The notes below the pieces were generated by a model that saw only the letters and a list, made by a program, of their open reading frames with translations, did no database searches and had not been told where the DNA came from. A stretch of DNA of 24,861 nucleotides, from IMG/VR virus record IMGVR_UViG_3300047321_000120, positions 1-24,861 of that record, one strand, 5' to 3'. This stretch comes from a virus. The position numbers and the translations under genes are program-made. Positions 1,866-24,275 of the stretch are shown here, one piece after another (position 1 is the stretch's first letter; each line of letters begins with the position of its first letter).

Positions 1866-1879
1866 TACCAAGATTGGTA
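1866..1879. promoter_or_regulatory. Palindromic operator-like site 1 (TACCAAGATTGGTA)
   Basis: Near-perfect 14-bp palindrome in the gap between the major capsid gene and the 57-aa gene, 47 nt before that gene's ATG. The symmetry extends outward: GGGGGCCACG on the left matches the complement of GGTGACCCCC on the right with few mismatches. On the minus strand the RNA could fold into a long hairpin, but no T-tract follows. It is one of nine related sites in the window and may be a repressor operator or an RNA hairpin. Confidence 0.65.
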
Positions 1880-1904
1880 GGTGACCCCCACTCACTCAGC
1901 CGGA

Positions 1905-2780
1905 TTAGCTGGGCAGACCCGTGGTGACGTCAACGTCCATCACGGCCAGGGCCTCAGGACGCGCGACCTTGGCACCGTAAAGGTGAAGGCCCTTGATCGC
2001 GTCGGCGAAGCTGTTCTGCGGGCGGTACGCCTCGACCTTGTTAATCTGCTCCGCGTAGGTCGTTGCGATCGAGTGACCGGCAACCACGAAGTTGGACACG
2101 GCCGGAAGGGTGCCAGCGGTGCCCTGCGGGAGGTTAAGCGACACCATCACGCTGAAACCGAGGATTGCGCCGACCTCACCATTGCGGATGGGGTCAGTGG
2201 AACCGTACTGGTTCGCGTAGATGAAGCGCGTGTCCTGAAGGATCAGCGAGTAGAACTCGGGCGACACGATGACATACCGGCCAGCGGTCGGCACCTTGGC
2301 CTTGTCTAGCTTCAGCTTCAGGGCCAGGACGATCTTGTACGCCGCATCGGAAGTCGCAGCCGCACCCGGGGTCAGGACGTTGCCCGCAGCCGTGGTCATC
2401 GCGGACGCCAGGAAGGTGTCAACAACCTCGGCCAGGCCAAAGGCCGAATCCTCCGCAGCGCGGTTGAGTAGCTGGCCACCATCGCGGACCTGACGCGCGT
2501 CGACGTCATCGACCTCAAACGCGAAGTACTTGCTCTGGTCGATCACCAGGGTGTCGTCCGTGGTGACAAGAGTCTGGGGCGCGATCGTGGTGCTGTTCTT
2601 GGTGTACGTGCCGATAGTCGGGCGCACTAGGTGCCCGATGTGCACAGTGTCACCGTACTGCGCGATATCGCCCTCATAGTCGCGGTTGATGATGCCGGGC
2701 TGGCCAAAGACCAGGTTCTCCCGTAGCGCAACTAGCAGGTCTGCCGACCAGACCTCAGGAATGAAAGTGTCAACGGCCAT
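1905..2780 (-). CDS. Major capsid protein (P22 coat-like, HK97 fold)
   Basis: A 291-aa protein starting MAVDTFIPEVWSADLLVALR, with NRDYEGDIAQYGDTVHIG at about residues 32-49 and DQSKYFAFEVDDVDARQV at about 81-98. These segments are typical of the P22 coat-protein-like branch of HK97-fold capsid proteins in actinophages. The order scaffold, capsid, connector genes supports the call. AGAGAGG-type ribosome-binding sequence (CAGAGAGGTTCGGCAA on the minus strand) precedes the ATG. No protease domain is visible in the gene. Confidence 0.92.
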   Translation of the reverse strand: MAVDTFIPEVWSADLLVALRENLVFGQPGIINRDYEGDIAQYGDTVHIGHLVRPTIGTYTKNSTTIAPQTLVTTDDTLVIDQSKYFAFEVDDVDARQVRDGGQLLNRAAEDSAFGLAEVVDTFLASAMTTAAGNVLTPGAAATSDAAYKIVLALKLKLDKAKVPTAGRYVIVSPEFYSLILQDTRFIYANQYGSTDPIRNGEVGAILGFSVMVSLNLPQGTAGTLPAVSNFVVAGHSIATTYAEQINKVEAYRPQNSFADAIKGLHLYGAKVARPEALAVMDVDVTTGLPS

Positions 2781-2808
2781 TTGCCGAACCTCTCTGGGTT
2801 AGGGATAG

Positions 2809-3480
2809 TTACTTGATGCCGAGCAGGTTGTTCAGGCGGCCCTCAGTCTTGGCCTTGCGAATGGCCTCAGGACTCATGCCCTTTAGCTGGTCGCGGGTGA
2901 GCTGAGGAATAGCTGCCTTGCGCGCTGCTCCGCCATCGCCAGTTCCCTGAAACCGTGGCCGGGCCGTTGCGGCTAGGTGTGGCTTCCGGGTTAGTAGTTC
3001 CTCGATCGCGTCGGAGATCTCACCTGCGTCTACATCGCCGTTCTCGTCTACCTCGAACTGGGCAGCGTCGATGAACGCGAGAGCATCAGCGGGGTCGGCG
3101 AACTTGCCAGCGGCAGCAGCCTTGATCTCAGACCTGAGGATTCGCGCGTTGGCCTTCAGGGTGGCCTCTCGCGCCGCCTCTCGCCGGATAGAATCCGGGT
3201 CAGGGGTGTCTGTGTCACCGGACGGCTTTGGGGCCTCCAGCGAAGCGATACGGGACTCTAGGTCTCGCCGCTTGTCCCTCTCCTCACGCCACTTGCTCTT
3301 CATGGAGTCAAGGGCCTTCTTACCGGCATCCCCCAGGGCCTCACTGCCAGCGGGGTCTGCGCCATCCGTCGAGTCAATCCCGTCCGCAGGGCCGTTGCCG
3401 GGCGGGGTCTGGTTCTCGTCAGGCGCGCCCGGATCGGTCGAGTCGTCAGCCGGACCATTGGGGTTAGGGTTTTCGGGCAT
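2809..3480 (-). CDS. Capsid scaffolding protein
   Basis: A 223-aa acidic protein. Residues 1-48 are low-complexity Pro/Asp/Gly/Asn, followed by a strongly charged helix (KSKWREERDKRRDLESRIAS) likely to form a coiled coil. Next come an Ala/Arg-rich helical part and FADPADALAFID with VDENGDVD, a segment seen in many actinophage scaffolds. The C-terminus is basic (KAKTEGRLNNLLGIK), as expected for the part that binds capsid protein. It lies directly upstream of the capsid gene. Operator-like site 2 lies 36 nt before its ATG, with TGGAGG as ribosome-binding site. Confidence 0.85.
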   Translation of the reverse strand: MPENPNPNGPADDSTDPGAPDENQTPPGNGPADGIDSTDGADPAGSEALGDAGKKALDSMKSKWREERDKRRDLESRIASLEAPKPSGDTDTPDPDSIRREAAREATLKANARILRSEIKAAAAGKFADPADALAFIDAAQFEVDENGDVDAGEISDAIEELLTRKPHLAATARPRFQGTGDGGAARKAAIPQLTRDQLKGMSPEAIRKAKTEGRLNNLLGIK

Positions 3481-3515
3481 GCTTGAACCTCCATGCGCAT
3501 TGCGCGCGTATCAGG

Positions 3516-3529
3516 TACCAAAATTGGTA
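3516..3529. promoter_or_regulatory. Palindromic operator-like site 2 (TACCAAAATTGGTA)
   Basis: Perfect copy of the 14-bp core, in the 76-nt gap between the MuF-like gene and the scaffold gene. The outer arms of the extended consensus are weak here (CAGG on one side, TGTGCC on the other). It lies 36 nt before the scaffold start on the minus strand. I see no clear -35/-10 pair next to it. Confidence 0.7.
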
Positions 3530-3556
3530 TGTGCCGGGTGCGCCGTGCGCGCTGCC

Positions 3557-4462
3557 TCAGCGGAGATAGCCGTTTTTGTAGAGCAGGCGGATTGCCTGTG
3601 CTCGGTCACCGTCGGCTAGTCGGTAGATCTCTTCCGGCATTAGCCGGGGCGGGCGCTTAGGCTTACGCTTGCTGCCCGTTCCAACGTGGGTTACTTGGAC
3701 CTTTCGACCGAACATCTCTACTGTGTCCATCGCCTTGCGCGCGTTCACGATGCTGTAGATGTTGGCGCCATCATCAATGGCCTTAGTGCCAGCCTCGCCA
3801 AACACCTTGCGGCGCTGGTCGGCAGACATGCGGTCGAACATGTCCTTGGCGTCCAGGGTGAAAGCGGCCTTCCCGTGCGTCACCGGTTCCATGGTGCAGT
3901 CGCAGTTGGGATGGCGCTGGAAGCCCGTTGAGACGCTGTACTCGCGGCCAGCCAGGATGATGCAGCGGGCACACGCGGGAAGCTCCACCACGCGCACATA
4001 GCTGGTCACCTTGGTATTGCCGACCATTGCGGCCTGGTCTGCCTGCCTGCCCGTGTCAGCAATCGTGGTGCGAACCACCATGTTGATGAATGAGCCTGCA
4101 CGGGCCATTGCGGTCCGGGCGGAGTCTCCCTCATCTCGTCGCCACAGGGCGGTAGGGATTGCGCGGGCAAGCACACCCATCAGGTTCCGCCCGTCCGGGG
4201 TGGCCCTGGCAAACTGCTCAGCGTCGATCTCAGCGTCAAGTGCGCCGATCATGTCGCGCATGAAGTCGTTCGTCATGTCCGCTGACTTGGTCTGCCCAGC
4301 TTGGACCATTGCGGTTACCTTGGGCAGCAATCGACCCCAGTTCTCAGCAACAGAACTGGGGTCGACCTTGGACCACTCAGCGAGTACGGCGCGGGCGGTA
4401 GCGTCAGCCAGCCGTTCCCGTTCCTTCTGGTGTAGGCGGGCCCTCAGGCTCCATACCATCAT
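3557..4462 (-). CDS. MuF-like minor head / capsid morphogenesis protein
   Basis: A 301-aa protein with a helical N-terminal half and a compact Cys/His cluster: C164 and C167 (LPACARC), then AGREYSVSTGFQRHPNCDC with H184, C187 and C189. This Cys/His pattern after an AGR motif marks the MuF-like minor head proteins of actinophages, which sit inside the capsid near the portal. The ATG-ATG start overlaps the end of the portal gene by 59 nt and has only a weak ribosome-binding site, suggesting translational coupling. The C-terminal tail is basic (GSKRKPKRPPR). Confidence 0.82.
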   Translation of the reverse strand: MMVWSLRARLHQKERERLADATARAVLAEWSKVDPSSVAENWGRLLPKVTAMVQAGQTKSADMTNDFMRDMIGALDAEIDAEQFARATPDGRNLMGVLARAIPTALWRRDEGDSARTAMARAGSFINMVVRTTIADTGRQADQAAMVGNTKVTSYVRVVELPACARCIILAGREYSVSTGFQRHPNCDCTMEPVTHGKAAFTLDAKDMFDRMSADQRRKVFGEAGTKAIDDGANIYSIVNARKAMDTVEMFGRKVQVTHVGTGSKRKPKRPPRLMPEEIYRLADGDRAQAIRLLYKNGYLR

Positions 4463-5912: not shown

Positions 5913-5925
5913 GATGCCCCCTCCC

Positions 5926-7524
5926 TCACGTTCCGTAGTAGTAAGACTTGCGCTTAGGTGCAGCCATGCCAGCGGCTATAGCATCCGAAGCGGCTTCATG
6001 TGCCAGGATGCTGGTTACCGCAGCGTCGATTTTCTGGTCAGCGGCAGACTTGGCCAGCACGTACCGGCCCTGGGGCCTTGCGGCTGCACGGGCGTTCCGA
6101 ATGTGACCGGACGTAATCGGGCACCCGTCATGGGTGAACCGAGTGTCAGCCTTGCTGATATCCGTCTTCAGTCGCTCCGCAGCAGTGTGCATCTGAACCA
6201 CGCGGCGGGTGTACCAGCGGATAACGATGCGGTCACCGTACTTGGCTGCCCACTCGTCTACCTCTGAGTCCCAATACGGTGGGTCAGCGTAAATGAGCTT
6301 GACGTCATACCGGCGCACCAGTTCGTCAAGGGCGGCCGAAACATCAAGCCTGGGAACCTGTCCGCCAAAGTCGGCAGGATTCCAGATGGTAGGCAGCCGG
6401 TTAGGGCCGTAGGTCGGGGTGAACTGGAAGCCGTCCAGCGTCTCAGCGCGGAATGCCGTCCAGTCATCGACGTCTGATCCGTCGAATCCCAAAACAATTG
6501 GGGTCCGGGGCTTGACATTCGGCCGGCCGTCTGCTCGCGCCTCCCACAAATTGTGCTCGACCCAGGCACCAGCGCCCGCAACGATGCGGTTTCCGAAGAA
6601 TCGCTCAGCCTGCGCGGGGTCAGTCTCGGCCAATTCGCTGGCCTCAGCCTCGATCGCGTCAAGGTCGATATGCGGGCAGTCACCGTAGACAGCCTTGTGA
6701 ATCTTCCGCCGTTCCTGCTTATTCCTGTACGACAGGTTTAGCGGGGCCTGCGGGAAGTAGCGGTAAACGTCCTCTGCCTTGCTCTCGTGGGTCCGCTTCG
6801 CTGTCGATTCCTCGGAAGGGTCGTAAGCGTTCGTCGTCTCCATGGAACGGCCGGACATACCAGCTAGACCACGGCGCATAGTCTCGGCCACTTTGATCAT
6901 CTTGTTCGTGGCCGTATACGTGCCGGTCTCGTCCTGAATTGCAAAGGTGATGGGGTTACCTAGGCGGGACTGCGCTGAAGACGTGACAGCGTCAATACGG
7001 CCTTCATCGCCGACCCTGACGAAACCCTCTCGGACGCTCATGAGCGCCCCTAGGGAACCGTGCTTGATCATGGCCGTCAGCGGGCGGTAGACGTTGGCGA
7101 CCTGGTCCTCAGACGTGGCGAGTAGCTGAATCAGCGGGGTGGGCTGAGGGACACCCATAGGCTCGCCCGGGGCGTACGCATAGGACCACCCGCAGGGGCA
7201 GCCATGGGTCCGGCACCGGTAACGCTCCCCGCCCTCAGCAAAGCCGTCAAAGACCGTAGGTCCGGCAGCCTCACCCAGAACGATGGCAGCCGCAAACGGG
7301 CCCTTACCGCTCTTCTGACTCATGATGACCTGCGCGCGCCGGTAGACGAACGCAGTAGAGAGCTGGCCTACCTCAGCGTCCGGGCGGACGGCGTACAGAT
7401 TCGCAGCGACCTTCATTTGCCAGGGCAGCAGATTGAACCGCTTACCCTGGCTGAAGCCATCAGGAACAACCGCGTGACGCTCGATCCAACGCAACGTGAC
7501 CCGCATGATGAGCGGATCACCCAT
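5926..7524 (-). CDS. terL: Terminase large subunit
   Basis: A 532-aa packaging motor. The ATPase half has a deviant Walker A (VIMSQKSGKGPFAA, K71-G75) and a Walker B ending in acidic residues (ITFAIQDE, D198-E199). The nuclease half begins with VLGFDGSD (D348) and has further acidic residues in LIYADPPYWDSEVDEW (D414 onward), consistent with an RNase-H-fold nuclease. A Cys-rich insert (CRTHGCPCGW, C104, C109, C111) sits in the ATPase domain. The start overlaps the small-subunit stop by 8 nt; an ATG at 7506 is an alternative. Confidence 0.95.
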   Translation of the reverse strand: MGDPLIMRVTLRWIERHAVVPDGFSQGKRFNLLPWQMKVAANLYAVRPDAEVGQLSTAFVYRRAQVIMSQKSGKGPFAAAIVLGEAAGPTVFDGFAEGGERYRCRTHGCPCGWSYAYAPGEPMGVPQPTPLIQLLATSEDQVANVYRPLTAMIKHGSLGALMSVREGFVRVGDEGRIDAVTSSAQSRLGNPITFAIQDETGTYTATNKMIKVAETMRRGLAGMSGRSMETTNAYDPSEESTAKRTHESKAEDVYRYFPQAPLNLSYRNKQERRKIHKAVYGDCPHIDLDAIEAEASELAETDPAQAERFFGNRIVAGAGAWVEHNLWEARADGRPNVKPRTPIVLGFDGSDVDDWTAFRAETLDGFQFTPTYGPNRLPTIWNPADFGGQVPRLDVSAALDELVRRYDVKLIYADPPYWDSEVDEWAAKYGDRIVIRWYTRRVVQMHTAAERLKTDISKADTRFTHDGCPITSGHIRNARAAARPQGRYVLAKSAADQKIDAAVTSILAHEAASDAIAAGMAAPKRKSYYYGT

Positions 7525-7984
7525 TGCCGACCACCAGCCGTAGCCGATCCTCGAACGAGTCTTCCTCGCTGTCAGTCACCGGCTGGTCATCGTCGTCAGC
7601 GTCGACAGCGCCAATGGTCCAACGGTTCCGTTGCATCCCGCTGACGCTCAGGCCCAGGGACTCGGCGAACTGTTTGACCTGGCCCCAGACGATTGCGCTA
7701 CTGCGCGGAGACTCAGCGCGAACCAGCAGACGAACGTAGCTGGCTACCTCGAATTCCTGGTGAAGCTGATCCCACATGACTGCCTGGGGAGTCTCCCAGA
7801 GCCGTTCCCAAAGCTGCATCTCGCGCGGACTCGGCGAGGCAAGGGGGAAGGCTGGTTCAGCGTCCTGACGACCCTCGCGCGGGAGTGTGACCCACCCGTT
7901 GGAGTCGGGGGCCTTAGCCTTGTGGCTGCGCTCAGTCGACGTTGGGGCCGGACCTGAGCGGGCGCGTGCGCCTCCCTTTGCCAT
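7517..7984 (-). CDS. terS: Terminase small subunit
   Basis: A 155-aa protein beginning MAKGGARARSGPAPTSTERS, the characteristic basic N-terminus of actinophage small terminases, which bind the packaging site and recruit TerL. It continues with helices (REMQLWERLWETPQAVMW) and ends in an acidic stretch (DADDDDQPVTDSEEDSFEDR). I chose ATG 7984 because GGAGG lies 7 nt upstream; the open frame to 8203 is antisense to the plus-strand gene there. The ribosome-binding site is fused to operator-like site 3. Confidence 0.9.
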   Translation of the reverse strand: MAKGGARARSGPAPTSTERSHKAKAPDSNGWVTLPREGRQDAEPAFPLASPSPREMQLWERLWETPQAVMWDQLHQEFEVASYVRLLVRAESPRSSAIVWGQVKQFAESLGLSVSGMQRNRWTIGAVDADDDDQPVTDSEEDSFEDRLRLVVGNG

Positions 7985-7993
7985 GGGGTCACC

Positions 7994-8007
7994 TCCCAAA
8001 ATTGGTA
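7994..8007. promoter_or_regulatory. Palindromic operator-like site 3 fused to the terS ribosome-binding site (TCCCAAAATTGGTA)
   Basis: Thirteen of 14 bases match the core. The one change (TACC to TCCC on the plus strand) makes GGGAGG on the minus strand, which is the ribosome-binding site of terS. On the minus strand the order is TACCAATTTTGGGAGG, TGACCCC, ATG. A plus-strand promoter starts on the other side, so this site may control both directions. The same fused arrangement recurs at 24262. Confidence 0.7.
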
Positions 8008-8014
8008 TGTGGTG

Positions 8015-8075: not shown

Positions 8076-8267
8076 GTGCCTGAGCCGCTGAAGGTTTCCG
8101 TCACCCTCACCATCACCCTCGCCAACCCGGATGACTGGACGATCGCGTTCGGTGCGAAGGGTCGCGCCGCAATCCGTGATGACGTCAAGTCGTACGTGGG
8201 CAACCTGATCCCGGAAAGTGGGGTGTTCGGTAACGGTGAAGTTGAAGCGTCAGTCGACTGGCGCTGA
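8076..8267 (+). CDS. Small plus-strand protein of unknown function beside terS
   Basis: A 63-aa protein, GTG start at 8076 with GGGAG 7 nt upstream. It has a beta-rich N-terminus (PLKVSVTLTITLANPDDW), a helix (RAAIRDDVKSYVGNL) and ends GEVEASVDWR. It is the only convincing plus-strand gene in the window and is divergent from terS with operator site 3 between them. A 12-bp hairpin follows the stop codon. The minus-strand frame over it lacks a good start. I do not recognise the family; divergent placement would suit a regulator or accessory gene, but no DNA-binding motif is visible. Confidence 0.7.
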   Translation: MPEPLKVSVTLTITLANPDDWTIAFGAKGRAAIRDDVKSYVGNLIPESGVFGNGEVEASVDWR

Positions 8268-8490: not shown

Positions 8491-8856
8491 TCATCCTCGG
8501 TCGTTCCAGCCACCAGGCTGGTTCCGTGCAGTCTCGCGCGCGTGATGCGACTTGGTCATGGCCCGTAGGTTGGTCCAGTCGTAGCCTCTCGGCCCCAGTG
8601 GTCCAAGGCCGTCGATGTGGTCAACCTCTGTAGCACGTGGCTTCAGCGGGACTGGCAGCGTACCGCACTGGGTGCATTCACAGTACGGGTGCTGCGCTAG
8701 GAATCTGGCCCGTGTGCGCTGCCACTGTGAGCCATAGCCCTTACGTGCAGTGCGCGTACGCATAGCAGCAGCCTTGGCCCTGCACTCAGCGCACCGCCCA
8801 GAGGGGTACACCAGCACAGGGCAGCCAGGGGTAGAACAGACGCTACGCGCTGGCAT
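8491..8856 (-). CDS. HNH endonuclease next to terminase
   Basis: A 121-aa protein with a zinc-binding N-terminus (CSTPGCPVLVYPSGRCAEC: C7, C12, C22, C25), then YGSQWQRTRARFLAQHPYCE and a second Cys pair (C..CGTLP), the HNH core ATEVDHIDGLG (D-H) and NLRAMTKSHHARET (N, H). HNH proteins beside terminases are known to take part in cos cleavage and packaging in many phages. The ATG at 8856 has GGGGG upstream and lies 12 nt after operator-like site 4. Confidence 0.88.
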   Translation of the reverse strand: MPARSVCSTPGCPVLVYPSGRCAECRAKAAAMRTRTARKGYGSQWQRTRARFLAQHPYCECTQCGTLPVPLKPRATEVDHIDGLGPLGPRGYDWTNLRAMTKSHHARETARNQPGGWNDRG

Positions 8857-8868
8857 AGGGCCCCCACA

Positions 8869-8882
8869 TACCGAAGTTGGTA
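8869..8882. promoter_or_regulatory. Palindromic operator-like site 4 (TACCGAAGTTGGTA)
   Basis: Divergent member of the palindrome family (12 of 14 core bases), 12 nt before the HNH start on the minus strand. The flank GGGCCCCCACA matches the extended arm only partly. Confidence 0.5.
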
Positions 8883-8895
8883 GGTGGTGCCTCCG

Positions 8896-9132: not shown

Positions 9133-9134
9133 TG

Positions 9135-9206
9135 CTCCCCATCCTGGGTTCGAACCAAGGTCCCATGATCCAGAGTCATGTGTCTTGCCTATTAGACCAA
9201 CGGGGA
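9135..9206 (-). tRNA. tRNA-Gln (CTG)
   Basis: Minus-strand cloverleaf of 72 nt: acceptor TCCCCGT/ATGGGGA with one G-U pair and discriminator G, D-arm GTCTAATAGGCAAGAC, anticodon arm CATGA-CTCTGGA-TCATG giving anticodon CTG, T-arm CTTGG-TTCGAAC-CCAGG. No CCA is encoded. Its 3' strand doubles as ribosome-binding site for the next gene. Confidence 0.9.
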
Positions 9207-9210
9207 ACGG

Positions 9211-9285
9211 CAGGCCCACCAGGATTCGAACCTGGGACACCCGGGTTTGGAAGCCGGTGCTCTGACCAGACTGAGCTATGGGCCT
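9211..9285 (-). tRNA. tRNA-Trp (CCA)
   Basis: 75-nt cloverleaf: acceptor AGGCCCA/TGGGCCT, discriminator G, D-arm beginning GCTCAG, anticodon loop TTCCAAA giving CCA, T-arm CCAGG-TTCGAAT-CCTGG. The last pair of the anticodon stem is a C-C mismatch (CCGGC/CCCGG). Reading the loop one base earlier would give TCC (Gly), but that destroys the stem, and G as discriminator suits Trp. Confidence 0.82.
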
Positions 9286-9290
9286 TTGTG

Positions 9291-9371
9291 TCCGCTGAGA
9301 GGGAGTCGAACCCCCATGCCTTCCGGCAGCAGGTTCTAAGCCTGCCGTGTCTACCATTTCACCATCAGCGG
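9291..9371 (-). tRNA. tRNA-Leu (TAG)
   Basis: 81-nt class II tRNA: acceptor CCGCTGA/TCAGCGG with discriminator A, GTGAAATGGTAGACAC D-region typical of Leu, anticodon arm GCAGG-CTTAGAA-CCTGC giving TAG, an extended variable region, and T-arm with TTCGACT. Confidence 0.9.
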
Positions 9372-9375
9372 AAGC

Positions 9376-9457
9376 TGTCAGCGGTACAGGGCTAGAACCA
9401 CCCTGTAGGGGAGTGCATGCCCCCCGTTGTCCCACGCTTTCGGGGATCGCCGCTGAC
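9376..9457 (-). other. tRNA-like element A (possibly a degenerate tRNA)
   Basis: 82 nt fitted exactly between tRNA-Leu and tRNA-Ile. Ends pair as a perfect 8-bp helix (GTCAGCGG/CCGCTGAC) with A following. Inside are TCCC/GGGA, a G4/C4 hairpin with GCATGCAC in its loop, and ACAGGG/CCCTGT enclosing TGGTTCTAG. The shape is a cloverleaf, but the T-loop is displaced and the D-arm lacks the usual GG. If ATGCACT were the anticodon loop, the anticodon would be GCA (Cys), with a C-C mismatch. It may be a decayed or unusual tRNA. Confidence 0.4.
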
Positions 9458-9461
9458 TCCG

Positions 9462-9536
9462 TTGACCCCCCTGGATTTGAACCAGGGACCTCCGCCTTAT
9501 CAGGGCGGCGCTCTAACCTGACTGAGCTAGGGGCCA
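9462..9536 (-). tRNA. tRNA-Ile (GAT)
   Basis: 75-nt cloverleaf: acceptor TGGCCCC/GGGGTCA, discriminator A, D-arm GCTCAGTCAGGTTAGAGC, anticodon arm CCGCC-CTGATAA-GGCGG giving GAT, T-arm CCTGG-TTCAAAT-CCAGG. One nt separates it from tRNA-Lys. Confidence 0.92.
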
Positions 9537-9537
9537 G

Positions 9538-9610
9538 TGATTAGGGCTGGACTCGAACCAGCGACCATGGGATTAAGAGTCCCAAGCTCTACCAACTGAG
9601 CTACCTAACC
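9538..9610 (-). tRNA. tRNA-Lys (CTT)
   Basis: 73-nt cloverleaf: acceptor GGTTAGG/CCTAATC, discriminator A, anticodon arm TGGGA-CTCTTAA-TCCCA giving CTT, T-arm GCTGG-TTCGAGT-CCAGC. Confidence 0.93.
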
Positions 9611-9614
9611 AAAG

Positions 9615-9687
9615 CTGGCACGGTAGGACTCGAACCTACGACATCCGGGTTAACGGCCCGGCGCTCTACCAACTGAGCTACGTGTCA
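9615..9687 (-). tRNA. tRNA-Asn (GTT)
   Basis: 73-nt cloverleaf: acceptor TGACACG/CGTGCCA with an A-C mismatch at the third pair, discriminator G, D-arm GCTCAGTTGGTAGAGC, anticodon arm CCGGG-CCGTTAA-CCCGG giving GTT, T-arm GTAGG-TTCGAGT-CCTAC. Confidence 0.9.
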
Positions 9688-9803
9688 CCGAAATTTAGGG
9701 TTACTCGCCGCCCTCTGTAACCAGGAACCACCCTGGCCAGTCGGGGCCGGTTTCACCCAAGGCACAAAGCATCGGAACCGGTCAGGAACCTATCCCTGTG
9801 CCG
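9688..9803. other. Structured gap inside the tRNA cluster
   Basis: 116 nt with no gene. It contains an inverted repeat GGTTAC/GTAACC (9699-9704 with 9717-9722), and on the minus strand CCAGG/CCTGG, GGCACA/TGTGCC and the direct repeat GGTTCCTG. The segment CAGGGTGGTTC is shared with tRNA-like element A. It could be another worn tRNA, but I could not close an acceptor helix. Confidence 0.3.
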
Positions 9804-9878
9804 TGGCTGGCGGGGCTGGACTCGAACCAGCGCATTGCGGGGGGCGACCCCATGCTCTACCAACTGAGCTACCCACCA
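9804..9878 (-). tRNA. tRNA with abnormal anticodon arm (isotype undetermined)
   Basis: Acceptor TGGTGGG/CCCGCCA, D-arm GCTCAGTTGGTAGAGC and T-arm GCTGG-TTCGAGT-CCAGC are normal, the discriminator is G, and the 3' CCA is encoded (9804-9806), unlike its neighbours. The anticodon arm TGGGG-TCGCCCC-CCGCA has a G-G mismatch and C in place of the invariant U33; read this way the anticodon is GCC (Gly). Shifting by one gives GTCGCCC with CGC (Ala) but worse pairing. Either the tRNA is defective or it has an unusual decoding loop. Confidence 0.7.
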
Positions 9879-9882
9879 TTGC

Positions 9883-9976
9883 TCACGCGCGATCCGGAAT
9901 CGAACCGGTACCCGTTACCGGGTCAGGGATTGCGGTCCCTAGTGGCCACGCCAATGGCCACCACACTGCACGCGTG
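9883..9976 (-). other. tRNA-like element B (class II size, 8-bp end helix)
   Basis: 94 nt. Ends CACGCGTG/CGCGCGTG pair over 8 bp (one wobble) with A next. The D-position holds a 7-bp hairpin GTGGCCA/TGGCCAC. The anticodon position is AGGGA/TCCCT with a 6-nt loop CCGCAA, and the variable arm is ACCCG-GTAA-CGGGT. The T-arm CCGG-TTCGATT-CCGG has a normal loop. The arm order and T-loop say tRNA; the long end helix, long D-hairpin and short anticodon loop do not fit a standard one. Confidence 0.5.
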
Positions 9977-9981
9977 CGCTG

Positions 9982-10053
9982 CGCTCCGTACCGGATTTGA
10001 ACCGGTGACATCCCGCTCGACAGGCGGGCGCTCTACCACTGAGCTAACGGAGC
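9982..10053 (-). tRNA. tRNA-Asp (GTC)
   Basis: 72-nt cloverleaf: acceptor GCTCCGT/ACGGAGC, discriminator G, D-arm GCTCAGTGGTAGAGC, anticodon arm CCCGC-CTGTCGA-GCGGG giving GTC, T-arm ACCGG-TTCAAAT-CCGGT. It is the first tRNA of the cluster in the direction of transcription. Confidence 0.93.
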
Positions 10054-10056
10054 AAG

Positions 10057-13825: not shown

Positions 13826-14263
13826 CTACCAGCGGTTGTCAGCCAGCATGCGCGGCAGCCGCTGGGCCTCAGCCACCGGGATTCCCAGCAGCGCAGCCAC
13901 GTCCTTGAACATCTTCTGCCGTGCCAGCTTCCGCGCCCCCATCGTGCCCGGCATGGTGTGGCGCGGGTGGGGCTGGCCGTCCCTCAGCTTGTCCGCAAGG
14001 TCCCAGGGCAGCACGTGGGTTCCGCTGGATACCGTCACAGTGTTCTCAGCGTCCATCCGCAGACGAGCGGCCAGACCATCCTTGTAGGCCCGCATCTGGC
14101 CGAACGTCATGGTTCCCGCCGGACCGTGGAAGGCCACCCAGGTCAACGCGTCCGCAATGGCCATGCGCTCGGTGTAGTAGCTGGCCGTCCGGAAGACTTC
14201 CTGACCGTTCTCGGTGACCGTCGCGTAGGTCTTGCCGTTCTCGGTGTAGTCCGTGATCTCCAT
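13826..14263 (-). CDS. Unknown protein, 145 aa
   Basis: Starts MEITDYTENGKTYATVTENG followed by QEVFRTASYYTERMAIADAL, a strand-strand-helix arrangement that recalls small DUF1508-type domains, though I would not assign it. The rest is helical and basic (GARKLARQKMFKDVAALLG). GAGGGAGCAGGGACC precedes the ATG. It is the first gene after operator site 6 and its linked promoter, and a hairpin follows it. Confidence 0.7.
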   Translation of the reverse strand: MEITDYTENGKTYATVTENGQEVFRTASYYTERMAIADALTWVAFHGPAGTMTFGQMRAYKDGLAARLRMDAENTVTVSSGTHVLPWDLADKLRDGQPHPRHTMPGTMGARKLARQKMFKDVAALLGIPVAEAQRLPRMLADNRW

Positions 14264-14298: not shown

Positions 14299-14347
14299 AC
14301 TATGGCAGTTCGCGCGGGCGCGCGCAAGGCACCTACCAAAATTGGTA
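14299..14347 (-). promoter_or_regulatory. Palindromic operator-like site 6 (14334-14347) plus promoter
   Basis: Perfect TACCAAAATTGGTA core at 14334-14347. On the minus strand it is followed by GGTGCC and then TTGCGC (14327-14322), a 17-bp spacer and CATAGT (14304-14299). This operator-then-promoter order recurs at 14687. It lies just after a strong terminator and drives the 145-aa gene. Confidence 0.65.
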
Positions 14348-14362
14348 TGCGGTGAGTGCCAC

Positions 14363-14401: not shown

Positions 14402-14611
14402 CTAGTTCATAAATCCAACCAGCTTGACCTTGTTCGCAGCGATACCCGCGTCAGTCGGGCGAACCTTCTCAGCCCAGTGGTGCCAAGTGCGCTCAAACCC
14501 CTCGGCAGCGTCGCAGGCAGCATCCGCCGTGCCGTAGGCAGTGCCGGTGTAGACCTTGTAGTAAGGACTGACCACGTACCAGTTGCCGTTACGGTGAACG
14601 ATGCCGAACAT
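14402..14611 (-). CDS. Small aromatic protein of unknown function
   Basis: A 69-aa protein, MFGIVHRNGNWYVVSPYYKV at the N-terminus, then YTGTAYGTADAACDAAEGFE and HHWAEKVRPTDAG. AGGAGG precedes the ATG. It is a single-gene transcription unit: operator site 5 and a promoter upstream, a strong terminator downstream. Such isolation suggests individually timed expression. Family unknown. Confidence 0.72.
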   Translation of the reverse strand: MFGIVHRNGNWYVVSPYYKVYTGTAYGTADAACDAAEGFERTWHHWAEKVRPTDAGIAANKVKLVGFMN

Positions 14612-14650: not shown

Positions 14651-14700
14651 ACGTTACGGTCCGGCAGCGCACCCGTGCAAGTCACCTACCAAAATTGGTA
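14651..14700 (-). promoter_or_regulatory. Palindromic operator-like site 5 (14687-14700) plus promoter
   Basis: Perfect TACCAAAATTGGTA core at 14687-14700, then on the minus strand GGTGAC, TTGCAC (14680-14675), 18 bp, TAACGT (14656-14651). Operator, 6-nt gap and TTGCRC are aligned exactly as at site 6. It drives the 69-aa gene. Confidence 0.65.
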
Positions 14701-14719
14701 GCTGGTCCTAGGTCACAGG

Positions 14720-16399: not shown

Positions 16400-16430
16400 G
16401 GTCTCTCCTCCATTGTGCTGAGGGGCCACC

Positions 16431-16444
16431 TACCAAATTTGGTA
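16431..16444. promoter_or_regulatory. Palindromic operator-like site 7 (TACCAAATTTGGTA)
   Basis: Fully palindromic 14-mer, extended by GGGGCCACC and TGTGACCCC arms, 31 nt before the ThyX start. The gap 16445-16487 also holds CTGGC/GCCAG and GGTAAGTTACC repeats, so the RNA here is highly structured. Confidence 0.7.
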
Positions 16445-16487
16445 TGTGACCCCAGGTAACTTACCGCCCTGGCAAATTGCGCCAGTG

Positions 16488-16930: not shown

Positions 16931-17234
16931 TCGCACGACGCCACTGGGTGAGGAAATCACGGGGGTCCGCCTTTGCCTTGTAAGTCTCGCGGTACGCCCG
17001 GATACGGTCTGGATTGGCGGCGCGCCATTCCCGCTGATACGTCTTGCGCCGTTGCGCGTCTGCCTTGCTGTACTCCGCGAGATGCGCGGTATTGGAGTCT
17101 CGCCACTGGGCAGAGGACTTCCGCCCGCACTCGGCGCATTGGGCTTTGCGTCCGTCCTTGACGGCTGCACAGCGATGGAATGCGGAGAGGGGTTTAGTCT
17201 CCCCGCACTTCCGACACGTCTTGCTGTCACTCAC
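16878..17234 (-). CDS. HNH-associated zinc-finger protein, N-terminal half (split gene)
   Basis: A 118-aa frame from GTG 17234, overlapping the sigma-like stop (GTGA). It starts SDSKTCRKCGETKPLSAFHR with a second pair CAECGRKSSAQW: two Cys-x-x-Cys pairs forming the zinc domain common at the front of phage homing HNH proteins. A basic helical linker (YQREWRAANPDRIRAYRETY) follows. After ANGVRQ the frame continues into unrelated sequence, while the HNH core resumes in the next frame with MAYDRARRQR. This half alone would lack the nuclease site. Confidence 0.75.
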   Translation of the reverse strand: MSDSKTCRKCGETKPLSAFHRCAAVKDGRKAQCAECGRKSSAQWRDSNTAHLAEYSKADAQRRKTYQREWRAANPDRIRAYRETYKAKADPRDFLTQWRRANGVRQGQAAEESTLQAR

Positions 17235-18331
17235 TTCCGGCCCGCCGACTTGCGCGCCTCAGCGGCAGCAGCAGCCCAGGCGAGAGCGTCAGCCTCAGTG
17301 GTGGCCACCAGGGCAATGAAGTACTTGGCGAACGCCATACGGCCCTTGGATCGCTGGACCTTGGCGTTATCCGGGGTGCATGCCAGCTTGGTTGCCAGGC
17401 CGTCAAGGTCGCACCCGTCACCCCAGCCAAAGTTTTCTACGTTGTCGATGCCGAACGAGTGGATCAGGACGAGACGCTGTCCGGCCCCCATGCGGTCGAG
17501 TGCGGCGTGAACCATGCCAACCTTGGCGGCCCGCTCGTCGCGTCGTTCGTCGGACAGGTCGCGCAGATCGTCGGCCATGTCGCCATCCTGGGCGGTCGAC
17601 ACGTAGCTACGGAGGATGGCGCAAGCGTCCAGTACGTAGCGCCGTTCCGTCGCGTCCTTGGGAAGCCTGACAGCATCCTCGATCGCGTCGACAGCCTCAG
17701 CGTCCGCAGGGAGGGCGTTCAGGACCCCGTACGCGGACGAGTACCGCTGAAGGACTGCCAGGGCTTCCAGGGCGGCGCCATGGCCCACCTTGGGGCGGAT
17801 GACGTCCGGGGTCTCATCCTCGACGGCCAGCGTGTCAGCCAGGCTGGGCGACTCGTCGTCATCCCCGTTCGGGCGGTCGATGCTCACGCTTCCCTGCCAA
17901 GCCACACGGGCAGCCTTGGCGCGCTCAGCGGACAGGCGCAGACCCTTGGGCGGCTCAGTCTGGGCCAGGGCCTCAGCCTTGTGTGCGTCGCTGTCGGCAA
18001 GCTCCATCATCGACATGAAGACCTTTACAGCGTCCTTGTCTGCACCCTGGTAGCGGGCCGCACGGACCTTGTCTTTGAGTGCATTCTGCGCGGACGAGTA
18101 GAGGAACCCCAGGAAGCCGTCAACGCTGGCCCCGATATAGCGCGGGATGGCCGTCAGGACTGCTTCCCGTGCGTCCTGGGCAAAGTCGTCAGCGTGCTCC
18201 CCGTGGCCGTTCATCCGGCGCGCTGCCTGGGAGGCCAGGACCCCTACCCGCTCGTTCATCTCGGTGAGTACGGCGGAGATGGCGTCAGAGTCGTTGGACT
18301 GGGCAGCGTAGATGTGGGCAAGCGTGATCAT
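17231..18331 (-). CDS. Divergent sigma-factor-like protein
   Basis: A 366-aa protein. Residues about 45-100 (HADDFAQDAREAVLTAIPRY, then DGFLGFLYSSAQNALKDKVR) resemble sigma region 2. Residues about 276-340 (GAGQRLVLIHSFGI, a Gly/Asp loop, then DLDGLATKLACTPDNAKVQR) resemble the helix-turn-helix of region 4. The middle is longer than in ECF factors. It could redirect host RNA polymerase to phage promoters. I chose ATG 18331 (GGAG 7 nt upstream) over TTG 18346. The 18-bp repeat copy 3 lies 31 nt before it. The family call is from weak similarity and needs structure-based comparison. Confidence 0.6.
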   Translation of the reverse strand: MITLAHIYAAQSNDSDAISAVLTEMNERVGVLASQAARRMNGHGEHADDFAQDAREAVLTAIPRYIGASVDGFLGFLYSSAQNALKDKVRAARYQGADKDAVKVFMSMMELADSDAHKAEALAQTEPPKGLRLSAERAKAARVAWQGSVSIDRPNGDDDESPSLADTLAVEDETPDVIRPKVGHGAALEALAVLQRYSSAYGVLNALPADAEAVDAIEDAVRLPKDATERRYVLDACAILRSYVSTAQDGDMADDLRDLSDERRDERAAKVGMVHAALDRMGAGQRLVLIHSFGIDNVENFGWGDGCDLDGLATKLACTPDNAKVQRSKGRMAFAKYFIALVATTEADALAWAAAAAEARKSAGRK

Positions 18332-18362
18332 GATTGCTCCGTTCAAGGGGTCTGACTCGGCT

Positions 18363-18507: not shown

Positions 18508-18541
18508 ACTAGACGCTTTTTTTGGTAGGTGGTCAAGCGTC
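18508..18541 (-). promoter_or_regulatory. Promoter with half-operator inside a hairpin
   Basis: Minus strand: TTGACC (18536-18531), 17-bp spacer, TCTAGT (18513-18508). The spacer contains the operator half TACCAA followed by a run of A, and GACGCTT/AAGCGTC (18512-18518 with 18535-18541) form a perfect 7-bp inverted repeat around it. It would drive the sigma-like operon with a leader of about 170 nt. Confidence 0.55.
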
Positions 18542-18751: not shown

Positions 18752-18760
18752 CATCACCTG

Positions 18761-20611: not shown

Positions 20612-20644
20612 GCTCTCTCCTCTGCACAGCACAAAGGGGCCACG

Positions 20645-20658
20645 TACCAAAATTGGTA
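20645..20658. promoter_or_regulatory. Palindromic operator-like site 8 (TACCAAAATTGGTA)
   Basis: Perfect core with the best extended arms: on the minus strand GGGGTCACC ... CGTGGCCCC, followed by TTTGTG. The RNA would form a stem of about 14 bp with one mismatch and a short U-run, so this copy could act as an operator, a terminator or both. It lies 33 nt before the polymerase start. Confidence 0.72.
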
Positions 20659-20682
20659 GGTGACCCCTCTGCTTACGACTGG

Positions 20683-20766
20683 CTAGACCTGCGCCCCGCA
20701 GGCCCCACACACTTCATCGGGCCTCAGGTCCGAGTGATCAGCCGGACACTCTCTCTCGTAGTACAT
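20683..20766 (-). CDS. 27-aa Cys-rich (zinc-ribbon-like) peptide
   Basis: ATG 20766 overlaps the primase-helicase stop by one base (TGATG). The peptide MYYERECPADHSDLRPDEVC continues GACGAQV and has C7, H11, C20 and C23: a C-x3-H then C-x-x-C set able to hold one zinc ion. Many phages encode such mini zinc ribbons. The 18-bp repeat copy 4 is 48 nt upstream. Confidence 0.6.
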   Translation of the reverse strand: MYYERECPADHSDLRPDEVCGACGAQV

Positions 20767-23210
20767 CAGGCATCCTTTCCGAAGATCCCGGGGCCCGTAG
20801 GCTTTGCCTCAGTGCTAGCGAGTCGGATACCCACCAGCGTGATGCCCTTGTTTGTCTTCTTACGGCTCACCTGTCGCTCTTCCATCGCGTCATAGAAAGC
20901 GCGGCGAGTCCAGATCTCCTTAGAGGGAAGCCCTTCAGCCTCGCACCATTCCCGGTACGCGTTGTAGGCGTCGGCCCCGGGAACCTGGTTGCTCTCGTCT
21001 CGGTCGTAGACACCCGGGAAGAACCCGACCAGGGCGTCGGAAGTCTCGCGGTACTCGCGCGAAGCGTCCGTGATCTCCGCAGGGTCCTGTAGTCCATTGG
21101 CGAACCACTCGACCGCTCCGCGCACTGCCCACGCTGCAATGCCCTTGGCTTCCGCCATCAACTTTTTGTCTAGGTCATGGTCCCGCTCATGCTCGGCGAA
21201 AAAGCGTTTGAAGGGGATCATCTTCACTCGACGCCACAGGCCATCGTCCTGGCCCTTGAACTTGGGTTTATGGTTCGTCGCCAGCATCAGCAGAAAAGAC
21301 GGCTTGAACTCAAAGAACTCCTGTTGCAGGAACCGCGCAGAGACCATGTCCTTGCCGGTTACCCGCTTCAGCACCGCTTCGCTCATAGGCTTGCCTGACT
21401 CACCCTCAGATGCCATGACGTACCGGGCACCGCGCAGGGCAGCAATGTCGTTGGGGATACCGCCGCTCTTCTTTTCCTCGAACGTGGCAAAGGGCGTTGT
21501 CTTGCTGATCGGCCCGAACACACTTGACAGGGTGTCAGTGAGCACACTCTTGCCGTTCGCGCCCTTGCCCCAGAGGACAGCGAAGCACTGCTCATCCGTG
21601 TGGCCCGTGCAGCCGTAGCCGATAAGCCGCTGAAGGTAGGCAGGCATGTCCGGCTTCCCCGGCATGATCTCCACCAGGAACGCTTCCCAGCGCGGGCACT
21701 TGGCGGCAGCGTCGTAGTCGATGGCCAGGCAGTAGGTCAGCATGTCCTCTTGGCGGTGCGGGTGCAGCCGTCCAGTGCGCAGGTCGACCGTGCCATTGCG
21801 GAAGCTCAGCAGATCAGCGCGTGCGTCAAACTCCTGGGGAGTCACGTACACGCTGGGGACGCTGCGTAGCTCCGTCATCAGGTCGTTGATGCGGGTCGTC
21901 ATGGTGAAGCCGCGCGCTTCCTTGACCTTGCCAGCGAGCACCAGGGCAGCACCCATCCGGTGAATTTCCTGCCGTACCTTGTGCGCGGATCGCTCCCACG
22001 TGCGCCCGTTCCAGACGTAGAAACCCAGGCCCGGGGCGTACTTGATCCGGCCATCCGTCCACGCCACCAGGGCATACGCGTTCATGGCGTCCGTGTCCCC
22101 GTAGCGTTCCAGCAGGCCAGCGAGGATGCGGGCCGCTTCATTGCCCATCTCACGCGAGACAATGTCAGCGCCGGTAGCCTCGCTAAGTTCCTCGCTGCGT
22201 TCCTCGCGCGCCGTGTCCTCAGCCTTGGCAACGGGCCGGGCAGCCTTGACGGCCTTGTGCAAGCTCAGCGCGAACGTCTGAGGCTCACTCTCTCGCCAGT
22301 CGGTAAGGTCAGCCTTGTTGCCCAGGGTGCGCGGAATGGCCAGCGCGTGAACGTCGATTCCGAACGGCTTCAGCCCTTCCGCCAACCTGCGGTTGAACTC
22401 GCGTCCGGCCGTGTCGTTGTCTCCGCACGCGATCACCTGAGTACCGGCAACGGCGTGCGCAATCTCGGCAACCAGGTCCGGCGAGGCAACCAGCGAGGCA
22501 CCCCGGACCATGACGACGTCGTAGCCAACGGCAACCCCTGTGAGGCCGTCTCCCGGCCCTTCAGTGATCAGGGTTACTCCGTACCCACCCTCACCCCGGA
22601 ACGCGCCGTAGGGGGCCCAGCGGAACCCCTCAGGGTTGCTGAGCGACACCCAGCGCCCGGGGCACTTGCCGGTCAGGTCGCGCCCCTGCAAACCGCGCGG
22701 GTTACCGCTGAAGTCCAGCAGAGGGACAGTCAGTCGCGCGTAGCGCTTGTAGGACTCACTGAGTGCCGGAAATAGCGGATTGACCGTGGTGTCATCGACT
22801 CCCACACCCAGCGCATACGCCAGCTCAGGACTCATGCCGAACCGGTCGGCGAGGTAGTCCCTGGCCCGTTCCGACCACTCGTCAGTTTCGGCCAGCCGGT
22901 CGCGTGACTCGTCCACGTAGTAAGCCAGGGCCGCAACGTGCTTGGGCCCCACCATCTCAGCCTTGGCGCTGGGCACGGTCGGAGCGTCCCCCTCTATGTC
23001 GAACAAGTCGGGCCACTTCAGATCAGCGGCCTTGCGCACGTCGTCAGTGGCGCAGCCAGCGCGGCACGTCAGCCGAACGGTGCGGTTATCGCCGACCCAG
23101 ATACGGAGCGACGGGCGGGAATCACCATGTGCGGGACACACAGCAAGGAAACCCCCGTCCGCCTGCTCAGTCACCTCAGTAAACCGGCTAATCAAATCAG
23201 CAAACTGCAT
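20766..23210 (-). CDS. Primase-helicase (zinc finger, Toprim, SF3 helicase)
   Basis: An 814-aa fusion that primes and unwinds DNA at the phage fork. The N-terminus has a CHC2-like zinc site (C25, H28, C49, C53). Toprim follows with LITEGPGDGLT (E217) and CGDNDTAG (D264, D266). The C-terminal half has a D5-type helicase: Walker A LWGKGANGKSVL (548-555), acidic MASEGESGKPM, and the sensor region LLMLATNHKPKFKGQDDGLW. AAGG lies about 8 nt before the ATG, which overlaps the 64-aa gene by 14 nt. Close in layout to other actinophage primase/helicase proteins. Confidence 0.95.
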   Translation of the reverse strand: MQFADLISRFTEVTEQADGGFLAVCPAHGDSRPSLRIWVGDNRTVRLTCRAGCATDDVRKAADLKWPDLFDIEGDAPTVPSAKAEMVGPKHVAALAYYVDESRDRLAETDEWSERARDYLADRFGMSPELAYALGVGVDDTTVNPLFPALSESYKRYARLTVPLLDFSGNPRGLQGRDLTGKCPGRWVSLSNPEGFRWAPYGAFRGEGGYGVTLITEGPGDGLTGVAVGYDVVMVRGASLVASPDLVAEIAHAVAGTQVIACGDNDTAGREFNRRLAEGLKPFGIDVHALAIPRTLGNKADLTDWRESEPQTFALSLHKAVKAARPVAKAEDTAREERSEELSEATGADIVSREMGNEAARILAGLLERYGDTDAMNAYALVAWTDGRIKYAPGLGFYVWNGRTWERSAHKVRQEIHRMGAALVLAGKVKEARGFTMTTRINDLMTELRSVPSVYVTPQEFDARADLLSFRNGTVDLRTGRLHPHRQEDMLTYCLAIDYDAAAKCPRWEAFLVEIMPGKPDMPAYLQRLIGYGCTGHTDEQCFAVLWGKGANGKSVLTDTLSSVFGPISKTTPFATFEEKKSGGIPNDIAALRGARYVMASEGESGKPMSEAVLKRVTGKDMVSARFLQQEFFEFKPSFLLMLATNHKPKFKGQDDGLWRRVKMIPFKRFFAEHERDHDLDKKLMAEAKGIAAWAVRGAVEWFANGLQDPAEITDASREYRETSDALVGFFPGVYDRDESNQVPGADAYNAYREWCEAEGLPSKEIWTRRAFYDAMEERQVSRKKTNKGITLVGIRLASTEAKPTGPGIFGKDA
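20815..20832 (-). promoter_or_regulatory. 18-bp directional repeat, copy 4 (variant)
   Basis: GGGTATCCGACTCGCTAG on the minus strand: 16 of 18 bases match. It lies inside the 3' end of the primase-helicase gene, 48 nt before the 27-aa peptide gene. The CCGACTCGCTAG half is fully conserved; the first half varies. Confidence 0.5.
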
Positions 23211-23391
23211 TGCGTGCCTTTCCAGCGCGCATGATTTGCAGCGCCTCGATAAGCTCTCCCATGTCGGTATCAGTCAGGAACACTGACGCGCTGTGTGCCC
23301 AGCCATCCGCCCACATAGTCAGCTCTGTCTGTCCGTACTCGATCCGGAGATCAATCTCCGCCCCGTCCTCAGTGACAAGTTCTGCGCGCAT
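23197..23391 (-). CDS. Small unknown protein upstream of primase-helicase
   Basis: A 64-aa protein: MRAELVTEDGAEIDLRIEYG then TMWADGWAHSASVFLTDTDM, ending IMRAGKARNAVC. GGAAGGGA lies a few bases before the ATG. It overlaps the primase start by 14 nt. Beta-rich with a C-terminal helix; I do not recognise it. The 18-bp repeat copy 5 is 26 nt before the start. Confidence 0.7.
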   Translation of the reverse strand: MRAELVTEDGAEIDLRIEYGQTELTMWADGWAHSASVFLTDTDMGELIEALQIMRAGKARNAVC

Positions 23392-23417
23392 CGCTGTCCC
23401 TTCCTGTCACTGAGGCC

Positions 23418-23435
23418 CTAGCGAGTCGGTTACCT
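23418..23435 (-). promoter_or_regulatory. 18-bp directional repeat, copy 5
   Basis: Exact AGGTAACCGACTCGCTAG directly after the intact HNH gene, whose TAG stop overlaps its first two bases, and 26 nt before the 64-aa gene. As at copy 2, it sits at the 3' end of an HNH gene and in front of a small gene. Confidence 0.6.
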
Positions 23436-23856
23436 AGAAAGGCGGAGGCTCAGCGCCGAACGTCTTGGACCACTCAGCCAGTGTCTTGGCACCCTTGGAC
23501 AGGTTGCAGCGCTGGCAGGCTGGCACGATGTTGGATTCCGTGTCAGTGCCTCCCTTGCTCAGCGGCTCGACATGGTCTAGGTGAGTGGCGTACGCCCCGC
23601 AGTAGGCGCAGGCATGTCCCCAGCGCTCCAAGATGGCCGTGCGCGAATAGGCCACGTGCTCGACCCCGTAGGACTCTGCACGGCGCTTGTGGGTTAGCTC
23701 ATGGCGCTTGTCCGGCGGCAGCGACCGGTAGTAGTTCTTGATGTGCTGGCGCTGCTTTGCTCGCCGACATGCCTTGCAAGCGCTCGACGGCTTGCCCTTG
23801 GCGGTAGTGAACTCAGTGGCGGGCCGACCCCGCCCGCATAGTCGACAGACCCTCAC
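23434..23856 (-). CDS. HNH endonuclease (intact, homing type)
   Basis: A 140-aa protein from GTG 23856 (GTGA overlap). N-terminal zinc domain: VCRLCGRGRPATEF and CKACRRAKQRQH. HNH core: CAYCGAYATHLDHVEPLSKG with D-H, then NIVPACQRCNLSKGAKTLAE with the second Cys pair and Asn. It is the intact relative of the split gene at 16649-17234. No intron is visible, so it is probably a free-standing homing endonuclease. Confidence 0.9.
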   Translation of the reverse strand: MRVCRLCGRGRPATEFTTAKGKPSSACKACRRAKQRQHIKNYYRSLPPDKRHELTHKRRAESYGVEHVAYSRTAILERWGHACAYCGAYATHLDHVEPLSKGGTDTESNIVPACQRCNLSKGAKTLAEWSKTFGAEPPPF

Positions 23857-23993
23857 TCGGTCACCTCGATAAGCGGTCCGTAGACGCGATCGACGGAGGC
23901 CCAGGAGTCAGACCATGCACCGGACACAGGCTCTAGCCACCCGTCCCCGTCCCACTCCCACACGTCTCCGGCAGTGTCCTTCCAGCGGGTCAC
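23853..23993 (-). CDS. Very small Trp-rich acidic protein (46 aa)
   Basis: GTG 23993 overlaps the upstream stop (GTGA) and its own stop overlaps the HNH start (GTGA). Product: MTRWKDTAGDVWEWDGDGWL, then EPVSGAWSDSWASVDRVYGP and LIEVTE. Six Trp in 46 residues and a net negative charge. The WEWDGDGW repeat-like segment is common in small unknown actinophage proteins. Function unknown. Confidence 0.65.
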   Translation of the reverse strand: MTRWKDTAGDVWEWDGDGWLEPVSGAWSDSWASVDRVYGPLIEVTE

Positions 23994-24076
23994 TCGTCCT
24001 CCCCAAACGTGCAGATGATGGCCAGCAGCAGCCAGCTACCCAGCAGTACACCGACCAGCAGACCAGCAACGAACAT
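23990..24076 (-). CDS. Very small membrane peptide (28 aa)
   Basis: ATG 24076 overlaps the upstream stop by one base (TGATG). Nearly the whole peptide is one hydrophobic helix (MFVAGLLVGVLLGSWLLLAI) with a short acidic tail (CTFGEDE). GGTGGG precedes it weakly. The chain of 1- and 4-nt overlaps on both sides supports that it is translated. Probably a single-span membrane peptide of unknown role. Confidence 0.6.
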   Translation of the reverse strand: MFVAGLLVGVLLGSWLLLAIICTFGEDE

Positions 24077-24252
24077 CAGCGAACCCACCTGACCTCAGCG
24101 CCACGCGTGATCGCGGCTGCAAATGCGTCCAGGTACCGACCCCAGTCCTTTCGGTCCTCAACGTCCGGGTAAAGCCAGATGACGTCACCCTGGCCCATCA
24201 TTCGTATGTCACCCATGGCCGGTGCGCTGGTGCCAGTAATGCCCATTTCCAA
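24076..24252 (-). CDS. Small unknown protein after operator site 9
   Basis: A 58-aa protein. TTG 24252 stands 7 nt after GGAGG, exactly where the terS ATG stands relative to its identical GGAGGTGACCCC; the ATG at 24246 is 13 nt away and less likely. Product: MEMGITGTSAPAMGDIRMMG, then DVIWLYPDVEDRKDWGRYLD and ITRGAEVRWVR. Unknown family. It is first in the operon leading to the HNH and primase genes. Confidence 0.65.
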   Translation of the reverse strand: MEMGITGTSAPAMGDIRMMGQGDVIWLYPDVEDRKDWGRYLDAFAAAITRGAEVRWVR

Positions 24253-24261
24253 GGGGTCACC

Positions 24262-24275
24262 TCCCAAAATTGGTA
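24262..24275. promoter_or_regulatory. Palindromic operator-like site 9 fused to a ribosome-binding site (TCCCAAAATTGGTA)
   Basis: The 14-bp site and the following 10 bases up to the start codon are identical to site 3 at terS: minus strand TACCAATTTTGGGAGG then TGACCCC. A TTGACC lies just upstream on the minus strand but no -10 fits. It follows a terminator, so this is where a new unit starts. Confidence 0.7.

Follow-up and report, generated by a model that had tools for sequence, protein, structure and literature searches.

Dispersed palindromes as probable operators of a phiC31-type repressor in a putative temperate Streptomyces phage

In phiC31, multiple dispersed repressor-binding sites have been reported, as have several N-terminally different isoforms of the repressor (PMC4557955). 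The cluster A stoperators of L5 and Bxb1 comprise 20–30 dispersed sites, most of which are not associated with promoters, and show a phage-specific consensus and cognate preference (PMC6550527). Those of L5 are asymmetric 13-bp sites that are aligned with the direction of transcription and bind a monomer, and they block elongation (PMC4557955, PMC6550527). Stoperator-type regulation has also been stated for R4 (PMC10276819). The genomes of phiC31, TG1, Lilbooboo and Samora each carry 15–16 conserved inverted repeats (CIRs), perfect or near-perfect palindromes that are intergenic and accompany both early and late genes. Cluster K start-associated sequences are repeated and located just before start codons; they are asymmetric and linked to translation starts.

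The DNA analysed here (the window) comprises 24,861 nucleotides, positions 1–24,861 of the IMG/VR virus record IMGVR_UViG_3300047321_000120. Its primase, polymerase and ThyX are 61–67% identical to those of phiC31, its sigma factor (gene at 17231–18346) is 45% identical, and its terminase and portal proteins share 71–75% identity with those of Dubu and phiSASD1. Because it also encodes a serine integrase and eight tRNAs, the window is most naturally read as belonging to a temperate soil Streptomyces phage whose replication genes are phiC31-like. The tRNA genes form a cluster at 9134–10053, flanked by the integrase and HNH genes. The terminase small subunit-like gene (7517–7984) is 69% identical to Dubu gp1; the matching PHROG and Dubu record both carry the label 'minor tail protein', probably a misannotation since the gene precedes that of the large subunit.

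A sequence-only reading of the window had described nine copies of a palindrome, all intergenic and 10–76 nt before minus-strand starts. All nine TACCAA-NN-TTGGTA sites are present where it placed them, compared with 0.32 ± 0.55 matches (up to three mismatches allowed) expected from shuffled windows, and none falls inside a called gene. The distances to the next minus-strand start, for which the HNH start was read by eye, are 9, 12, 15, 31, 33, 35, 46, 70 and 75 nt, so the earlier range was right to within one base. All sites are given here on the minus strand. The site at 1862..1883 (core 1866–1879) lies between the major capsid gene and a 57-aa gene starting at 1819; it has an extended hairpin, GTGGGGG...CCCCCGC, and its homologue is found at 15486 in the relative G002, described below. 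The next, at 3512..3533 (core 3516–3529), is 35 nt before the head scaffolding gene (2809–3480), a junction that also carries a site in the relative G001. At 7990..8011 (core 7994–8007, a TCCCAA variant) a site is followed after 9 nt by the terminase small subunit-like gene, and the right arm of the site, GGGAGG, can double as a ribosome-binding site; on the far side of the site at 7994, a small plus-strand reading frame (8076–8267) diverges from this gene. The site at 8865..8886 (core 8869–8882) is 12 nt before the HNH endonuclease gene (8491–8856), and Rowa has a site at the same junction. Two sites are associated with small genes: one at 14330..14351 (core 14334–14347), 70 nt before the gene at 13826–14263, and one at 14683..14704 (core 14687–14700), before the gene at 14402–14611. 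The latter is directly upstream of a promoter-like TTGCAC-N18-TAACGT on the same strand (14651..14680; −35 at 14680–14675 and −10 at 14656–14651). The site at 16427..16448 (core 16431–16444) is 31 nt before thyX, whose start was taken as 16399, and this junction carries a site in 8 phages. Between the primase and DNA polymerase genes, the site at 20641..20662 (core 20645–20658) sits inside an extended hairpin, GAGGGG...CCCCTTT, at a junction that carries a site in 7 phages. The last, at 24258..24279 (core 24262–24275, also a TCCCAA variant), is 15 nt before a 56-aa gene starting at 24246, and the same junction carries a site before phiC31 gene 5 and its homologues.

A half-site, TTGGTAGGTGGTC, had additionally been noted at 18522, between the DNA polymerase and sigma factor genes. 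It is real and unchanged in G002, but its second arm is absent and it falls within the loop of a different inverted repeat (18512..18541, minus strand); as an operator it is doubtful. The corresponding interval holds two CIRs in phiC31.

Direct inspection showed that two window sites near start codons (7994–8007 and 24262–24275) read TTGGGAGG and not TTGGTAGG, and these can therefore supply a ribosome-binding site. Sites within 15 nt of a start codon (these two and G001 20767) have an off-consensus right arm, TTGGGAGG or TTGGAAGG. Where such an arm serves as the ribosome-binding site, the bases used by the ribosome and by the repressor would coincide.

The conserved unit is 22 bp long, CAC-N-TACCAA-NN-TTGGTA-N-GTG, according to a consensus from 48 sites of G002 (which repeats the window's nine), three further relatives (G001, G003 and G004) and the contig L074. 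The variable columns are the centre and the positions designated ±1 and ±5 outside the core. An extension of the symmetry to GGGG-N-CAC-N-core-N-GTG-N-CCCC had been suggested; in its CAC/GTG part conservation almost equals that of the core (43 to 48 of the 48 sites per column), but GGGG/CCCC is weak, at about 0.1–0.6 bit per position, and owes part of its signal to the subset of sites that form hairpins.

Scanning IMG/VR with the 22-bp pattern returned 29 stretches on about 16 contigs; among the isolated phages of INPHARED, none matches the 22-bp consensus. The closest relative, G002 (39,547 b), is 97–99% identical along the whole window and has 13 sites, while G001, G003 and G004 are near-complete, more distant relatives with 9–12 sites each. 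In all four, nearly every site is intergenic and precedes a start codon. Related phages and the remainder of the genome had been named as places to look, and both speak for an operator set: in the former the sites are kept before the same genes, and the latter, as represented by G002, contains further sites, including two before a repressor gene. This gene (27254–28723, 489 aa) is flanked by those for a dNMP kinase (26072–26626) and an exonuclease (29068), the position of repressor c in phiC31, and its product matches Pfam PF25746, 'Streptomyces phage repressor protein c' (E 6.7e-68). Proteins of G001 and G003 also match PF25746. A site precedes the repressor gene in all four genomes, accompanied in G002 by a promoter. 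The locus falls outside the span of the window, whose repressor is assigned through G002. Between the two sites directly before the G002 repressor gene is a 103-aa protein (26844–27155) without a Pfam or PHROG match; some other repressor reading frames (L080, L083 and L090) have parts of similar sequence in their N-terminal regions. An apparent duplication within the G004 repressor, as joined from contig ends, is probably a terminal overlap of the contig and was left out of the analysis.

The same placement of a PF25746 repressor between dNMP kinase and exonuclease genes is found in phiC31, TG1, Lilbooboo and Samora, and the CIRs of this group, like the sites of the window and G002, lie before the repressor, endolysin, thyX and polymerase genes. 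About 10–18 dispersed intergenic palindromes sharing one sequence are expected of a phiC31-type system; we found 9 in the window and 13 in G002. Unlike phiC31, with half-site GTGAGTAGG and residues R-T in the predicted recognition helix, the system has NTTGGTA-N-GTG and, in G002, E-I. Its repressor family, gene order and site layout place it in the phiC31 repressor–CIR kind. We consider it very probable that the palindromes are dispersed operators of the phage's own phiC31-type (PF25746) immunity repressor, encoded outside the window. A phage-wide operator set for one repressor, as the sequence-only reading had proposed, is the best-supported interpretation in view of the relatives' sites and the G002 gene; the inverted repeats of phiC31, invoked there as a parallel, are more than that, because the G002 repressor falls in the phiC31 repressor's own Pfam family. 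Beyond that reading, we observed that most sites have no adjacent promoter, that some form hairpins, and that the word is one spelling of a wider family.

A palindrome in DNA is also a potential hairpin in RNA, and the sites could be terminators or processing signals instead of protein-binding sites, which we regard as very unlikely. At least four contiguous paired bases extend beyond the 22 bp at 11 of 45 sites (2.4 expected), the primase–polymerase junction site has an extended stem in all four genomes, and T-rich tails follow the stems that enclose some CIRs of phiC31, TG1, Lilbooboo and Samora. However, an extended stem or T-run is missing at most sites, spelling tracks the repressor, and the core and CAC/GTG are fixed in sequence. 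Positions ±1 and ±5 are variable and mostly unpaired in the phage sites (paired at 11/45 and 14/45, no better than chance), unlike in chromosomal matches of the Streptomyces group (18/20 paired at each), which argues that the sequence and not an RNA stem is conserved. Since pairing exceeds expectation outside the operator and not inside it, a hairpin function would be an overlay, and it can be additional to the operator role. Phage sites might alternatively turn genes on: the phage sigma factor (17231–18346) or another protein would read them as activator, sigma-factor or start-associated sites. Their location before starts, the sigma factor gene itself and the pair TTGNNN-N16–19-TANNNT within 70 nt downstream of 8/45 sites (0.24 expected; upstream of none) would fit such a role, and a likeness to cluster K start-associated sequences, going by their general description, extends to being repeated just before start codons. 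Yet a palindrome is an unusual form for a sigma-factor site, most sites have no visible promoter, sites also precede the repressor gene, and the spellings follow the repressor; we find this reading very improbable. Genome-wide dispersal would also suit replication, packaging, a nuclease or a host nucleoid protein, but confinement to intergenic spaces before starts, conservation at corresponding gene junctions and a spelling specific to the phage make a role in any such DNA transaction barely credible.

Several phiC31-type CIRs are embedded in terminator-like hairpin stems (L030 34784; L031 25761 and 32646; L034 35082; L035 34193), and several of these are followed by T-rich tails, as operator–terminator hybrids. 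In GTDB genomes the 22-bp pattern occurs in 28 stretches, 20 of them in Streptomyces or Kitasatospora; almost all 28 are isolated copies with perfect pairing. No PF25746 gene was found in four Streptomyces genomes with a match or in a Streptosporangiaceae MAG, and we judged these chromosomal matches to be chance terminator-like hairpins rather than operators. The exception is L074, a phage-like contig with three sites.

The preferred reading, operators of a PF25746 repressor, can be combined with the promoter distribution. The 8/45 sites with a −35/−10 pair downstream indicate that part of the set adjoins promoters; the scan covered TTGNNN-N16–19-TANNNT only and would miss other promoter types. 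Most of the remaining sites lie 9–80 nt ahead of a start codon; many of them follow the stop codon of the preceding gene by a few bases, and some are located between tail genes. For these sites a block to elongation is likelier. In this respect they resemble cluster A stoperators, most of which are away from promoters, and they differ from those of L5 in being palindromes and not asymmetric, oriented 13-bp sites. Where a promoter is visible, sites of the window and its relatives are just upstream of the −35, whereas several phiC31 CIRs are just upstream of a −10-like sequence. A division into two classes of site-to-−35 spacing, for repressor and other promoters, was broken by G004 40460. We propose that a repressor dimer reads each 22-bp site by a helix-turn-helix, one half-site per subunit, recognizing the frame TA-N-GTG and the specificity bases TTGG. 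In a lysogen the repressor would occupy all sites at once, hindering initiation at promoter-adjacent sites and, at the majority without a visible promoter, blocking the passing polymerase as L5 stoperators do. The site before the repressor gene would allow autoregulation, and hairpin-forming sites may add termination.

The position of the sites is shared more widely than their sequence. Each phage repeats its own palindrome: ACTCACGTGAGT in phiC31, Lilbooboo, Samora and TG1, ACCTAG-N8-CTAGGT in Shady, and CACCT-N12-AGGTG in Rowa. ACTCACGTGAGT is absent from the window and the G002 system, which have TACCAA-NN-TTGGTA in its place. Shady (L036) has 18 genome-wide GACCACCTAG-N8-CTAGGTGGTC-like palindromes that are unannotated in its record. 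Among nine phages compared, homologous genes stand directly behind sites for the repressor in all nine, endolysin, thyX and the phiC31 gene-5/HNH group in eight each, and polymerase in seven, with differently spelt sites at the same junctions in phiC31, TG1, Lilbooboo, Shady and Rowa. A conserved position with a varying word fits joint change of word and repressor. Because spelling varies within the repressor family, we treat it as specificity and not as a defining feature of a phiC31-type system. Shady and Rowa match the window and G002 in repressor position, junctions and the outer frame TA-N-GTG; their inner bases are TT(A/G)C and T(T/C)CG, respectively, versus TTGG. In the PF25746 phages Dubu and L141–L143 we found no clear repeated palindrome of the shared frame, or only a few. 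GGAGAG-N3-CTCTCC is repeated six times in Dubu (L033) and four times in L144, and Dubu also has a few GACTCAA-TTGAGTC; either is a candidate for the operator.

Scans with repressor alignments yielded 33 loci and a further 22, and a PF25746 family search found members in 7/394 Streptomyces genomes. Read from the dyad outward, the half-sites are NTTGGTA-N-GTG (window/G002), NTTCGTA-N-GTG, NT(T/C)CGTA-N-GTG, N(A/C)CTGTA-N-GTG, NT(C/G)AGTA-N-GTG, TTCAGTA, GTGAGTAGG in phiC31 and GTTACTAGGTG in Shady. Nearly all have TA at +6/+7 (TG1 has TG, and some genomic relatives differ), most have GTG at +9 to +11 (not the phiC31 or TTCAGTA types), and the variation falls at +2 to +5. Grouping repressors by the +4 base alone was abandoned, as it mixed spellings and gave no clear columns. 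AlphaFold2 (25 sequences) predicted a helix-turn-helix at 383–391/398–413, with local confidence of about 85–96 and an overall pTM of 0.43; a PDB fold search with the repressor matched no solved structure (best E 0.3). Residues 398/399, predicted to sit at the start of the recognition helix, are the most informative on operator spelling, ranking 1 and 2 of 244 columns. With five residues around this pair, the spelling was predicted correctly in 13/13 cases among repressors less than 40% identical, a test weaker than its count because the cases come mostly from two classes (TTGG and the phiC31 type); none of 343 other five-residue windows equals this, and one reaches 12.

The best case is L105 (G003), which is 26% identical to the G002 repressor and has a TTGG operator. 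It groups with phiC31, Dubu and Shady in a clade of seven (support 99/97), on a long branch of unsure placement. L105 reads KSEIDKARER and the G002 group KGEIEKARER, and the only rare residues common to them are E398 and I399; TTGG thus occurs in two separated clades, both with E-I. L003, found via its operator only, has GEIEKARERY. The L105 case fits either convergence or acquisition of the helix by recombination. Operator classes mostly coincide with clades, so independent changes are few, L105 being the one best case. With moderate confidence, we suggest that the operators share a family-wide frame and that two repressor residues go together with operator spelling. We put forward, as an evenly balanced proposition, a modular PF25746 code in which TA at +6/+7, usually followed by N-GTG, is common to most of the family and the tetranucleotide at +2 to +5 is determined by two residues (398/399 in G002) that precede a conserved glutamate, with a specificity that arose at least twice and with many operator–terminator hybrids.

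The kind of system is already known; its specificity, the apparent code and the frequent hairpin embedding look new, and our literature search, which covered sources other than the original phiC31 repressor papers, returned no report of a family-wide frame or a two-residue correlation. A single repeated word gives a testable rule on which prophage confers immunity against which phage, within a large group of Streptomyces viruses that includes phiC31, the source of standard genetic tools. Because two distant clades share one specificity, the code can be tested cleanly by mutation. If the code is true, immunity groups of PF25746 actinobacteriophages would be predictable from sequence, and a compact protein–DNA code would allow mutually independent repressor–operator pairs to be chosen from nature.
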